Shown piece after piece: positions 28,468 to 31,881 of a DNA stretch of 31,881 bases. The DNA comes from a virus, in IMG/VR virus record IMGVR_UViG_3300032331_003508, positions 1 to 31,881 of that record. One strand, written 5' to 3'. Both the position numbers and the translations under genes were made by a program. The notes under the pieces were generated by a model. The model did not search any database. It was not told where the DNA came from and saw nothing but the letters and a program-made list of their open reading frames with translations. Every line of letters begins with the position of its first letter. Within the stretch, counting starts at the first letter, position 1.

Positions 28468-28553
28468 AACCTTAATTTATCTGAGCTTGACATTATTATT
28501 GTAGCGTAAAATCTTTGTTTTAATTGCTTTTAATGTCATATATTTAAGTTAAA

Positions 28554-28562
28554 TGCTATAAT
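28554..28562 (+). promoter_or_regulatory. Extended -10 promoter of the Cas12-like gene
   Basis: TGCTATAAT is a perfect extended -10. No -35 of good spacing is seen (TTGCTT lies 27 bases upstream). The structured leader starts 8 bases after it, about where transcription would begin. Confidence 0.6.
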
Positions 28563-28569
28563 ATTTAAA

Positions 28570-28612
28570 CCTAGTCGCGCGGTGATGTTCTCAGCATCAA
28601 GCCACCACTAGG
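28570..28612 (+). ncRNA. Structured leader of the Cas12-like gene
   Basis: CCTAGT/ACTAGG closes a hairpin with an inner GGTG/CACC or GATG/CATC stem and loop TTCTCAG. It is followed by GGAGTAGGTCC and a small GGT/ACC pairing. It is the relative of the leader at 25488-25528; differences at paired positions keep the pairs (C-G to G-C, A-U to G-C, G-C to A-U). It could be a riboswitch-like or protein-binding element. The gene's ATG at 28647 lacks a close ribosome-binding site. Confidence 0.6.
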
Positions 28613-28646
28613 AGTAGGTCCAACATACCCACGCATCTATTTTACC

Positions 28647-30410
28647 ATGAAAACTTTTGAATTTAAACTTGACCCCACGGTTGCACAAGTACAAACGATT
28701 AATCAATGGCTAGACAAACTCAAGTGGGTTTGGAATACAGGGCTGTCACTCAAACTAGCAGGAAGACAGAAATATTATAGAGAGAAAGAAATAGGCGATC
28801 GCATTATTCCTGATGGTGTAGTTTTGCAGTGGAAATGGCGAAAGGTTGTTACTGAAGACAAGAAAGGTAAGTCTACTGAGAAGTGGGAGAAAGTCCGCTT
28901 AGTCGGTACAGGTGTCATCAGACCTAAAAGCGGTCATCCTTACTGTGAAATTAGACAACACTTAAATATTGAAAACCCTGATAAATATGCACAATGTGAA
29001 TTTTATAGGAGAGACAATATTCCCGACTTTATGGCAGATGTTCCCACTAAATTTAAGGCAGGGGTAATTGATTCTTTAAAGAAATCATGGAAAGCTTACG
29101 TTACTCCAAAACACCCCGGTAGAAAGCCAAAATTCAAAGGGAGAAACGATAAAATCAAGTCGCTTGTTAATTTCAATGCTGGGGGTTTATCTAAAGAACT
29201 AAAACCAGAAAAAATACCCGGTTCAAATAATGGTTATGTCCAGTTCCCCAAGCTTGGTAAAATTAAAGTTAAGGGATTATTTGATAGATATGACTGGCAA
29301 GAATGGGGTCCTGCCAGAATAGTTAAAGAACCATCAGGTTACTATCTTCATGTATGCGTTGATATCCCCAATGACCCATTACCAAAATCTGATAAAGCAG
29401 TAGGAATTGATCCGGGTTTACTATCAGTTATCACCACAGATCAGGGGAGAGAAGTTGAGCCGCCTAGGCTATTTAGGAAACAACAAACTAAGCTAAGACG
29501 GTTACAGCGTAAAGCGTCTAGGCAACAAAAGGGAGGATGTAATCAGAAGAAAACCTATCAAAAAATAGCCTTACACCATGAAAAGATCCGCCGCAGCCGC
29601 AACGCATTTAATCATAAGCTATCTACTAAAGTTGTGCGTGAGTATTCTGGCATTGTCATGGAAGACATCAAAATACAAAATCTAAACCGTAAGCCCAAAG
29701 CCAAGAAACGTGAAGACGGCAATGGCTATGAACAAAACGGTGCAAAACGTAAAGCCGGGTTAAACAAAAGTTTTGCCGATTCAGCACTGGGTGATTTAAT
29801 CAGTAAGATTGAAACAAAGTGTAAAGATACTGATAGAGAGTTTGTAAAAGTTGCGGCACACTACACTACGGTTGACTGTTCAAAATGTGGTGCTAAAATA
29901 AAGAAAGCATTGAGCCAAAGAACTCACCGCTGTACAGAATGTGGTCACACAGAAGGACGTGATTCTAACGCAGCTAAGAACATCTTACTCAAAGGCAAAA
30001 AGCAATTATCAGCAGTGTACCGCGCTTGGGCGTGGGAACATGGGGAAACCCGAAAGCCTGGCTCTGATTCCAATACGGAATGTCACCAGGAAGGTGTGCA
30101 AGCACCACCGGAGGATGGATATTCCTCCCAATTAAACCCCGAAAGGGGAACTCAGCGCGGAAGGGGGGATGTAAAAACCTCTAAAGCCGTGAAAACAACC
30201 TCAAAGGTAGACACCGTAAGCAATCCGAACCTTGACAATTTATCCATCACCCGCGCACCTTACCCAATAAGCATTTCAGCTAATTCAGCGAAAACTCAAA
30301 AACCTGGAACAAAGAAAAATAAGAGATCCGCGCAATCAGGGGATGAAACCTTTACACAGCTTACGATCTGGGATACGGCAGGTGAAACCGACCTTGGGGA
30401 ACTGGGTTAA
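28647..30410 (+). CDS. Compact TnpB/Cas12-like (type V-U-like) RNA-guided nuclease
   Basis: A 587-residue protein. The N-terminus (MKTFEFKLDPTVAQVQTINQ, then LDKLKWVWNTGLSL) and the basic central part (HPGRKPKFKGRNDKIKSLVN) are of TnpB/Cas12 type. The RuvC nuclease is complete: D255 in AVGIDPGLLSVITTD, E339 in SGIVMEDIKIQNL, D439 in GRDSNAAKNILL. A zinc finger has C411-C414 and C429-C432. It is larger than typical TnpB (about 400) and near the small Cas12 effectors. Residues about 458-587 are a Ser/Thr/Gly/Pro-rich tail without a fold signature, coded over a chain of RNA hairpins. The TAA stop lies at bases 28-30 of the first 37-base CRISPR repeat. No cas1, cas2 or transposase TnpA is in the window. 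It would use crRNA, probably with a tracr-like RNA, to bind or cut DNA. An alternative is a TnpB insertion next to an unrelated array, but the stop-in-repeat overlap argues against this. Confidence 0.88.
   Translation: MKTFEFKLDPTVAQVQTINQWLDKLKWVWNTGLSLKLAGRQKYYREKEIGDRIIPDGVVLQWKWRKVVTEDKKGKSTEKWEKVRLVGTGVIRPKSGHPYCEIRQHLNIENPDKYAQCEFYRRDNIPDFMADVPTKFKAGVIDSLKKSWKAYVTPKHPGRKPKFKGRNDKIKSLVNFNAGGLSKELKPEKIPGSNNGYVQFPKLGKIKVKGLFDRYDWQEWGPARIVKEPSGYYLHVCVDIPNDPLPKSDKAVGIDPGLLSVITTDQGREVEPPRLFRKQQTKLRRLQRKASRQQKGGCNQKKTYQKIALHHEKIRRSRNAFNHKLSTKVVREYSGIVMEDIKIQNLNRKPKAKKREDGNGYEQNGAKRKAGLNKSFADSALGDLISKIETKCKDTDREFVKVAAHYTTVDCSKCGAKIKKALSQRTHRCTECGHTEGRDSNAAKNILLKGKKQLSAVYRAWAWEHGETRKPGSDSNTECHQEGVQAPPEDGYSSQLNPERGTQRGRGDVKTSKAVKTTSKVDTVSNPNLDNLSITRAPYPISISANSAKTQKPGTKKNKRSAQSGDETFTQLTIWDTAGETDLGELG
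30020..30215 (+). ncRNA. Candidate tracrRNA / omega-RNA-like scaffold inside the effector gene
   Basis: Consecutive stems occur on the plus strand: CCGCGC/GCGTGG (30020-30035); GGG-GAAA-CCC (30042-30051); a compound hairpin CCTGG/CCAGG (30057-30090) with inner ATTCC/GGAAT; GGTGT-GCAA-GCACC (30093-30106); GGAGG/CCTCC (30110-30128); and CCCC-GAAA-GGGG (30137-30148). Three have GNRA tetraloops. CAATTAAACCC (30129-30139) can pair with the repeat's GGGTTAATTG (one bulge). CCTCAAAGGTAG...CACC (about 30199-30215) can pair with the repeat's GGTG...CGACCTTGGGG. The order suits antiparallel pairing. GGGGAACT is shared by this region (30145-30152) and the repeat. The 5' and 3' ends of the RNA cannot be fixed from sequence alone. 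Confidence 0.6.
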
Positions 30411-31881
30411 TTGCAAGTGAGCAATGGCTTAAAGGTGCCTGATAAGTTTTTCTGGTGAAACCGACCTTGGGGAACTGGGTTAATTGCAAGTGAACATTTG
30501 TACAACAAAAAGTTGTCAGAACGGTGAAACCGACCTTGGGGAACTGGGTTAATTGCAAGCCCACCTCTAGCGAGATTTTAGAAGTAGTAGAAGGGTGAAA
30601 CCGACCTTGGGGAACTGGGTTAATTGCAAGCAGGATATTGAATATTGTAAAAAAACTCCAGAATTAGGGTGAAACCGACCTTGGGGAACTGGGTTAATTG
30701 CAAGAAAATCCTATTGAAAGAATAAAAGAATGGTGTGGCTTGGTGAAACCGACCTTGGGGAACTGGGTTAATTGCAAGAATGGTTTTGATGTAAAAATTG
30801 CTGATAATGAATTGGTGAAACCGACCTTGGGGAACTGGGTTAATTGCAAGGTGATACCCACCGCCCACCCCCAACCCCCCTCCTGGTGAAACCGACCTTG
30901 GGGAACTGGGTTAATTGCAAGGACTAGATTATGTTTAAATTTAGGATTGATAAAAGAGAGGTGAAACCGACCTTGGGGAACTGGGTTAATTGCAAGTCAT
31001 GCCCTAAGCTATTGCTTAATAAGTGGATGTGGTGAAACCGACCTTGGGGAACTGGGTTAATTGCAATATCAAACCAAAAAGCTAGGTAGTACTTGCACTA
31101 ATGGGTGAAACCGACCTTGGGGAACTGGGTTAATTGCAAGCCTACAGAGATAAGCTTGAAAGTATCAAAGAAATGCTCAGGTGAAACCGACCTTGGGGAA
31201 CTGGGTTAATTGCAAGACTAAAGCTTATCCCTTTATGGATTGAATTAACAGGTGAAACCGACCTTGGGGAACTGGGTTAATTGCAAGAATTTGGGGGGAC
31301 GTGACAGGGGAAAAACCGCGATGGTGAAACCGACCTTGGGGAACTGGGTTAATTGCAAGAGTGGCAATAAATATCTTGTCGCCACCATCCGGTGAAACCG
31401 ACCTTGGGGAACTGGGTTAATTGCAAGTTACATTTGTAATTATATTAGTCTTACTTATATGTCATGGTGAAACCGACCTTGGGGAACTGGGTTAATTGCA
31501 AGGATATTGAATTGACTGAAAACAAAGAACAAAATATTGGGTGAAACCGACCTTGGGGAACTGGGTTAATTGCAAGCTTCTGGAGTGCGATCGCGCGTCC
31601 AGTCATTGATTGGTGAAACCGACCTTGGGGAACTGGGTTAATTGCAAGCCTCATTTAGAGAGGCATTTTTAGCGTAGGGGAATCGGTGAAACCGACCTTG
31701 GGGAACTGGGTTAATTGCAAGACGATCCAAGCCTAACAACCATCTTCTACCCTCCCCCGGTGAAACCGACCTTGGGGAACTGGGTTAATTGCAAGGTAGT
31801 TCAGGTTGTGGGATTGTTTTTAAAAACTCGGTGAAACCGACCTTGGAGAACTGGGTTAATTGCAAGGCTATTGGCTATAGA
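30381..31881 (+). CRISPR. CRISPR array, 21 repeats of 37 bases, open at the right edge
   Basis: Repeats begin GGTGAAACCGACC and end GGTTAATTGCAAG. Starts: 30381, 30454, 30523, 30594, 30668, 30742, 30814, 30885, 30960, 31031, 31104, 31180, 31251, 31323, 31391, 31466, 31540, 31612, 31685, 31759, 31830. Twenty complete spacers of 31-39 bases are all different; a 21st is cut by the window edge. Repeat 10 ends in T instead of G; the last repeat visible has GGAG for GGGG. The other 19 are identical. The first repeat overlaps the last 30 bases of the effector gene. Repeat and spacer sizes fit type V systems. Orientation is taken as the direction of the effector gene; a leader end is not proven. Confidence 0.98.

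Follow-up and report, generated by a model that had tools for sequence, protein, structure and literature searches.

A cyanophage type V-U2 (C2c8) CRISPR cassette with a candidate scaffold RNA in the 3′ quarter of its effector gene

In cyanophage vB_AphaS-CL131 (MG209611), the gene for a type V-U2 effector is the only cas gene and is accompanied by ten spacers (Sulcius et al. 2018, PMC6293099). Its describers reported no trans-activating CRISPR RNA (tracrRNA) for this clustered regularly interspaced short palindromic repeat (CRISPR) locus, suggested a gene-regulatory role for it, and noted a partial match between one spacer and a cyanobacterial DNA primase pseudogene (PMC6293099). Phage type V systems without acquisition genes, some of them with spacers against other phages, have also been described (PMC7162821). 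According to a 2025 classification, TnpB has become associated with CRISPR independently about 50 times (PMC12669027), and the table of a 2024 review gives C2c8 without a protospacer adjacent motif (PAM) or an effector length (PMC11641405). Here, we analyze a locus of this kind in IMG/VR virus record IMGVR_UViG_3300032331_003508, whose entire 31,881 bp we call the window. Its effector is of type V-U2 (C2c8), a kind already described, and is predicted to cleave or bind nucleic acid under RNA guidance. An earlier note on this DNA had presented a complete effector plus array in a cyanophage as novel, which was overstated because the CL131 locus, with a 76.5% identical effector, was published in 2018. 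The same note overlooked a scaffold RNA in the 3′ quarter of the effector open reading frame (ORF), and this component appears to be new and previously overlooked.

We propose, with a probability of roughly 0.6, that the cassette specifies a dual-RNA-guided nuclease directed against competing phages. A RuvC nuclease of ~454 residues would be encoded on a single transcript, together with a scaffold RNA lying in the 3′ end of the nuclease frame and with the CRISPR array. This RNA would be the counterpart of the omegaRNA of TnpB, split from the guide; its anti-repeat would pair with the repeat part of each CRISPR RNA (crRNA), and the resulting dual guide would steer the nuclease to the DNA of other cyanophages in the same host, causing inter-phage exclusion. 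New spacers would be inserted beside the effector gene, whose 3′ end would take the place of a leader, and because the phages have no Cas1, insertion would probably be carried out by Cas1-Cas2 of the host. We infer this activity from sequence, including transcription, processing, cleavage, a PAM, and the source of Cas1-Cas2. The parts of the cassette are as follows.

28547-28646, + strand: 5′ boundary of the cassette, with a TATAAT-like box (28557-28562) and a CCTAGT/ACTAGG stem-loop (28570-28612); placed by alignment and by the start of DNA similarity.
28647-30008, + strand: Cas12u2 (V-U2/C2c8) RuvC nuclease, codons 1-454, the protein-selected part of the ORF; from NF038192, PADLOC, third-position bias, and catalytic residues.
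30009-30410, + strand: in-frame 3′ extension of the ORF, codons 455-587, which lacks codon-position bias and holds the scaffold RNA; from the codon-position test and the CL131 stop with conserved DNA beyond it.
30016-30134, + strand: scaffold RNA (tracrRNA- or omegaRNA-like), with a GTACCGCGCTTGGG-GTGGGAAC stem, further stems, and a terminal hairpin (30110-30128); from the fold and a covariance model.
30129-30139, + strand: putative anti-repeat CAATTAAACCC, pairing with the repeat 3′ end GGGTTAATTG with one bulge; from position and homology, weak in the window and strong in related lineages.
30381-31866, + strand: CRISPR array of 21 repeats and 20 spacers, its first repeat overlapping the ORF end and its distal end cut by the end of the record.

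The effector ORF (28647-30410, + strand, 587 codons) lies directly upstream of the array, and its family can be read directly from profile searches: the curated C2c8 model NF038192 (NCBIfam) scored 484 bits against a cut-off of 350, and the PADLOC Cas12u2 profile scored 550 bits. These scores sharpen the Cas12/TnpB-like reading of the earlier note to V-U2/C2c8. Both the RuvC triad (D255, E339, and D439) and the zinc-finger cysteines (C411, C414, C429, and C432) are invariant across 11 orthologues, in agreement with the earlier description of a 587-residue RuvC nuclease; that description needs one correction, in that only ~454 codons behave as protein. The AlphaFold model of the effector (predicted local distance difference test score, 34.7) was unusable. 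Close relatives of the effector were found at 13 IMG/VR loci and on one contig of Dolichospermum circinale. In a tree that combines V-U2 effectors with 21 TnpBs from cyanobacteria, the two groups are split with support of 98/96, and the phage effectors form one clade (100/100); branching order inside the V-U2 side is unsure because several rows there are long-branched. The Dolichospermum relative (L015; NZ_KE384676.1, strain AWQC310F) has 14 repeats; its contig belongs to a host genome assembly and may represent a prophage, phage contamination, or a host locus.

The division of the ORF is visible in how substitutions fall on codon positions. In codons 1-454, they are mostly at third positions (25:9:126 between the window and L015; 74:42:193 between the window and the related locus L007), while from codon 455 to the end they are even (23:24:20 and 33:38:32, respectively), with no departure from uniform. 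The two parts differ significantly in both comparisons (P = 1e−12 with L015, P = 7e−9 with L007). Judged by this pattern, the first ~454 codons appear to behave as protein and the remaining ~130 as RNA. The CL131 frame ends with a stop after 466 codons, past which the DNA stays conserved and the RNA is kept.

Conservation of the scaffold RNA and its position at the gene's 3′ end, where IS200/IS605 TnpB genes also have theirs, were observed directly. The motif GTACCGCGCTTGGG(C/A)GTGGGAAC is unchanged as far as the Chroococcidiopsis c2c8 gene, at 32% protein identity. The consensus fold (A1) contains 34 pairs, 12 of which show compensatory changes, including all six pairs of the terminal hairpin. 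A covariance model (R1), trained on the phage copies, the Dolichospermum copy (L015), and the Chroococcidiopsis copy, found the scaffold RNA in a host V-U2 locus outside the training set (L054; E = 3.4e−8). There, it lies outside the ORF, between gene and array, 82 nucleotides (nt) beyond the stop codon. A scan of 98 cyanobacterial genomes with R1 gave one match, in the Dolichospermum genome with L015; as L015 belongs to the training set, this match speaks only for the specificity of the model and is no independent evidence. A search of Rfam gave no match.

Two side observations concern this region. C2c8 genes with the scaffold RNA and without an array occur on Chroococcidiopsis conjugative plasmids (L018, 6312-6550, and L019); a downstream TTGCAAG resembles the end of the phage repeat, possibly indicating a TnpB-like single-guide form. 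In addition, the end of the ORF encodes QLT(I/L)W (30350-30385 in the window; 7715-7740 in L017), with 18 nt identical between the window and the Microcystis c2c8 gene, and we take this peptide to resemble a beta-sliding-clamp binding motif. Because the frame is open in most phages and QLT(I/L)W recurs, the ORF end may also have a role as protein.

Right after the terminal hairpin sits a putative anti-repeat, complementary to the repeat of its own lineage. It reads CCAATCAC...ATCATCC in L007 (repeat, GGATGTCATGTGATTGG), CCAACTACATTACATCC in CL131, and CAATTAACC in L015 (repeat, GGTTAATTG). At the Microcystis locus, the scaffold is not alignable, and CCTGATAAGGC faces GCCTTATTAGG at the 3′ end of the frame. 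Searching all 520 nt upstream for RNA duplexes was uninformative for the window group, and a position-limited test was used instead. In related lineages, pairing exceeds that of shuffled sequences (P < 0.0005 in L007, CL131, and L017; P = 0.0055 in L011, 0.025 in L015, and 0.022 in L054). When anti-repeats and repeats were swapped among lineages, the own repeat was usually, not always, the best partner: the window repeat is a better partner for the L015 anti-repeat, and the L011 repeat for that of CL131, both times within the same clade. Taken together, the sequences suggest that the anti-repeat changes along with the repeat in related lineages.

The array begins at 30381 with 21 repeats of 37 nt (GGTGAAACCGACCTTGGGGAACTGGGTTAATTGCAAG; 2 of the 21 copies have small changes), in agreement with the at least 21 repeats claimed earlier directly behind the effector, and its first repeat begins within the ORF, 30 nt ahead of the ORF end. 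The same arrangement, with the array directly behind the effector gene, is found in every phage locus that reaches that far. Spacers in the window are 31 to 39 nt long, and the most frequent spacer length is 34 nt (35 of 124), a peak of the kind that an integrase with a ruler would give. Phages whose effectors are 94 to 98% identical carry different spacers. The differences are polar, as can be seen directly in three array pairs that share distal spacers and differ beside the gene. Loci L007 and L008 have three distal spacers in common and an identical 2,133-bp downstream flank; the L012 and L079 contigs are identical over 20,180 bp, and their arrays differ by the first fourteen spacers and one duplicated unit; and the window shares with L112 only its distal spacer 20. 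Insertion of new spacers beside the gene would be expected to produce such polarity. We found no Cas1 and no Y1 transposase TnpA in 12 phage records (the window and 11 related ones), in searches in which control genomes gave matches and cas2 and cas4 were not separately searched, and the earlier note was right that neither cas1 nor a transposase is visible. By this search, the phages do not have their own Cas1, which is part of the complete adaptive system of phage ICP1. It is plausible that Cas1-Cas2 of the host supplies the spacers. Two array regions are unusual: L006 (6568-6655) has a decayed array of two repeats and a 14-nt spacer that cuts the 3′ end of the frame, and L002 (7136-7670) has a small gene with a copy of a ~36-bp sequence on either side and two further repeats after it.

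To find targets, spacers were compared with phage genes at the protein level; the matches to the phage genes named below score at least 45, the best of 148 shuffled spacers having scored 42. Homologous sites in other phages were observed directly, and the sequences suggest that the array is aimed at genes of rival cyanophages. The telomere resolvase (PF16684) of other cyanophages is matched by two spacers from different phages, and a DUF3854/D5 primase-helicase of a cyanophage is matched by one. Several sites are matched by more than one array, as in the case of window spacer 14, spacer 14 of phage G003, and spacer 23 of G007, a sister phage of the window; window spacer 17 and one G007 spacer match the same 60-amino-acid (aa) phage ORF. 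The set of homologous targets is small (about five of some hundred spacers). The two window spacers concerned are the following.

31360-31390, + strand: spacer 14, protein site D-N/G-G-E/D-K-V/I-FIAT, the same site as spacers in the arrays of two other phages.
31577-31611, + strand: spacer 17, homologous at the protein level to the 60-aa ORF in phages G004 and G007 and to a G007 spacer.

The telomere resolvase (ResT/TelK) gene of a related cyanophage (L021; G001:31603-32646), which is also a spacer target, suggests linear plasmid-like prophages or hairpin ends. A TTTAGTGCCGGTGGAA core shared by several G007 spacers was followed as a target lead and rejected, as it led to unrelated loci.

The remainder of the window consists of phage genes, as the earlier note had stated, and these encode a tape measure protein, a major head protein/protease, a helicase, a DNA methyltransferase, an antirepressor, and a large terminase (phrog_979, E = 5e−142). 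The window is collinear with two independent IMG/VR contigs, G001 over 22 kb (90.6%) and G004 over 20.6 kb (92.8%), which have the effector with an array and with an array remnant, respectively. This rules out an assembly artefact joining phage DNA to a host contig, a possibility raised at the outset. DNA similarity of the window to CL131 and to phages G005 and G006 is limited to 28547/28559-30093, with nothing beyond, and the cassette therefore moves between otherwise unrelated phages. No plasmid DNA relatives were found by blastn. Besides its V-U2 locus, the sister phage G007 (IMGVR_UViG_3300042378_000447) encodes a second compact effector (L042, 13443-15311) that is essentially identical to Cas12p of PDB 9JFS (1413 bits over 612 residues) and has its own convergent array with a different repeat.

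Several observations weigh against a dual-guided nuclease aimed at rival phages. Except in CL131 and L006, the phages keep the frame open across the RNA, something that a pure RNA would not require, and the anti-repeat of the window itself is weak (shuffle P = 0.13) and rests on position and homology. The difference between the L012 and L079 arrays is explained equally well by a single deletion of 14 spacers or by an assembly effect. A search of 149 Nostocales genomes found no array with the phage repeat, and a cognate Cas1-Cas2 is therefore not indicated by any host array. Exact foreign protospacers were not found: blastn of ~100 spacers against INPHARED gave none, partial-spacer exact scans of IMG/VR gave nothing convincing, and homologues of the target genes scanned for exact sites had diverged sites only. 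No PAM can therefore be read, and none could be derived from the homologous sites, whose flanks are inconsistent. The inter-viral role put forward in the earlier note is supported by the few homologous phage sites and not by an exact match. Finally, spacer 1 of phage G002 (L004) matches its own genome at 37 of 37 positions (G002:13840-13876), which is awkward for a cleaving effector; this spacer also matches a sister phage with one mismatch.

The self-matching spacer would be harmless if the V-U2 complex bound its target without cutting and repressed genes of other phages or of its own phage. Such silencing is the main rival explanation, and we regard it as unlikely though well worth weighing. 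Cas12m and plasmid type IV systems repress rather than cut. The authors of the CL131 paper doubted cleavage by V-U2 and proposed regulation (PMC6293099); against this stand the invariance of the RuvC triad and zinc ribbon in the 11 orthologues and the nature of the targets found, which are coding sequences of other phages. It is improbable that the array instead serves the host, with a host effector using the phage crRNAs and the V-U2 gene as a separate passenger. Cyanophages with an array and without an effector are known (a Nostoc phage, cited in PMC6293099), and acquisition genes are missing from most phage CRISPR systems (PMC7162821), but effector, scaffold, and array stay together in every locus that extends past the gene, the anti-repeat tracks its lineage's repeat, and the Nostocales genomes have no array with the phage repeat.

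We give a slightly smaller chance to a decaying remnant kept by hitch-hiking with neighboring genes, which the reduced L006 array and the loss of the C-terminal frame in CL131 would fit; however, the strong third-position bias in the nuclease part, the near-perfect repeats, and the fully different spacers of close phages point to ongoing selection and turnover. It is very improbable that the ORF is an ordinary IS605 TnpB transposon located beside an array by chance. TnpB profiles do match the effector (guided_TnpB, 201 bits), and some c2c8 relatives lie on Chroococcidiopsis plasmids without an array. The C2c8 model, however, scores far over its cut-off, an array follows the gene directly wherever a phage locus extends that far, and an IS605 element is contradicted by the missing Y1 TnpA, by the separate clade in the tree, and by a 5′ flank that is not conserved across loci (it is kept in five of eight aligned loci, namely the window, L006, L007, L011, and CL131, and different in L004, L005, and L015).

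Four points appear to be new: the scaffold RNA, the polar array differences in phages without cas1, the homologous phage targets, and a cassette common to unrelated phages. V-U2 is counted among the uncharacterized type V systems. If the scaffold is the missing guide component of V-U2, the published loci become testable at once with an effector of ~454 residues, and earlier tests with crRNA only would be expected to fail. The array pairs are a natural record of a phage array changing at one end without its own Cas1 and bear on whether phages borrow host adaptation enzymes against rivals. More tentatively, and at somewhat less than even odds, we suggest that V-U2 represents a surviving stage between TnpB and Cas12: its scaffold, which would pair in trans with the array repeats, still lies within the ORF in phages and has left the ORF in a host locus, and its phage version would remain adaptive through host Cas1-Cas2 and be used by related cyanophages against each other.

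Among known systems, the locus of CL131 is alike in its effector family, in the array right behind the gene, in the lack of other cas genes, in belonging to a siphovirus of filamentous cyanobacteria, and in the scaffold RNA, which is followed by an anti-repeat that is strong in CL131 and weak in the window; its repeat, spacers, and unrelated flanking genome differ. Host V-U2 (C2c8) loci (G152, G220, and Microcystis plasmid p1) also have a C2c8 effector followed by an array, and G152 has the same scaffold RNA family between gene and array; there, however, the scaffold is outside the ORF, the repeats of host loci differ, and the phage effectors form a clade of their own. Unlike IS200/IS605 TnpB with omegaRNA, the window would take its guide from a multi-spacer array instead of the element flank, has no TnpA, and falls outside the cyanobacterial TnpB clade. 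Cas12p (PDB 9JFS/9JG3), likewise a compact Cas12 with its own array in the sister phage G007, is only a distant relative of the window effector. The CRISPR systems of huge phages (CasPhi and V-U variants; PMC7162821) share with the window a phage-borne compact type V effector and an array without Cas1/Cas2, with some anti-phage spacers, and belong to a different effector family and phage group.

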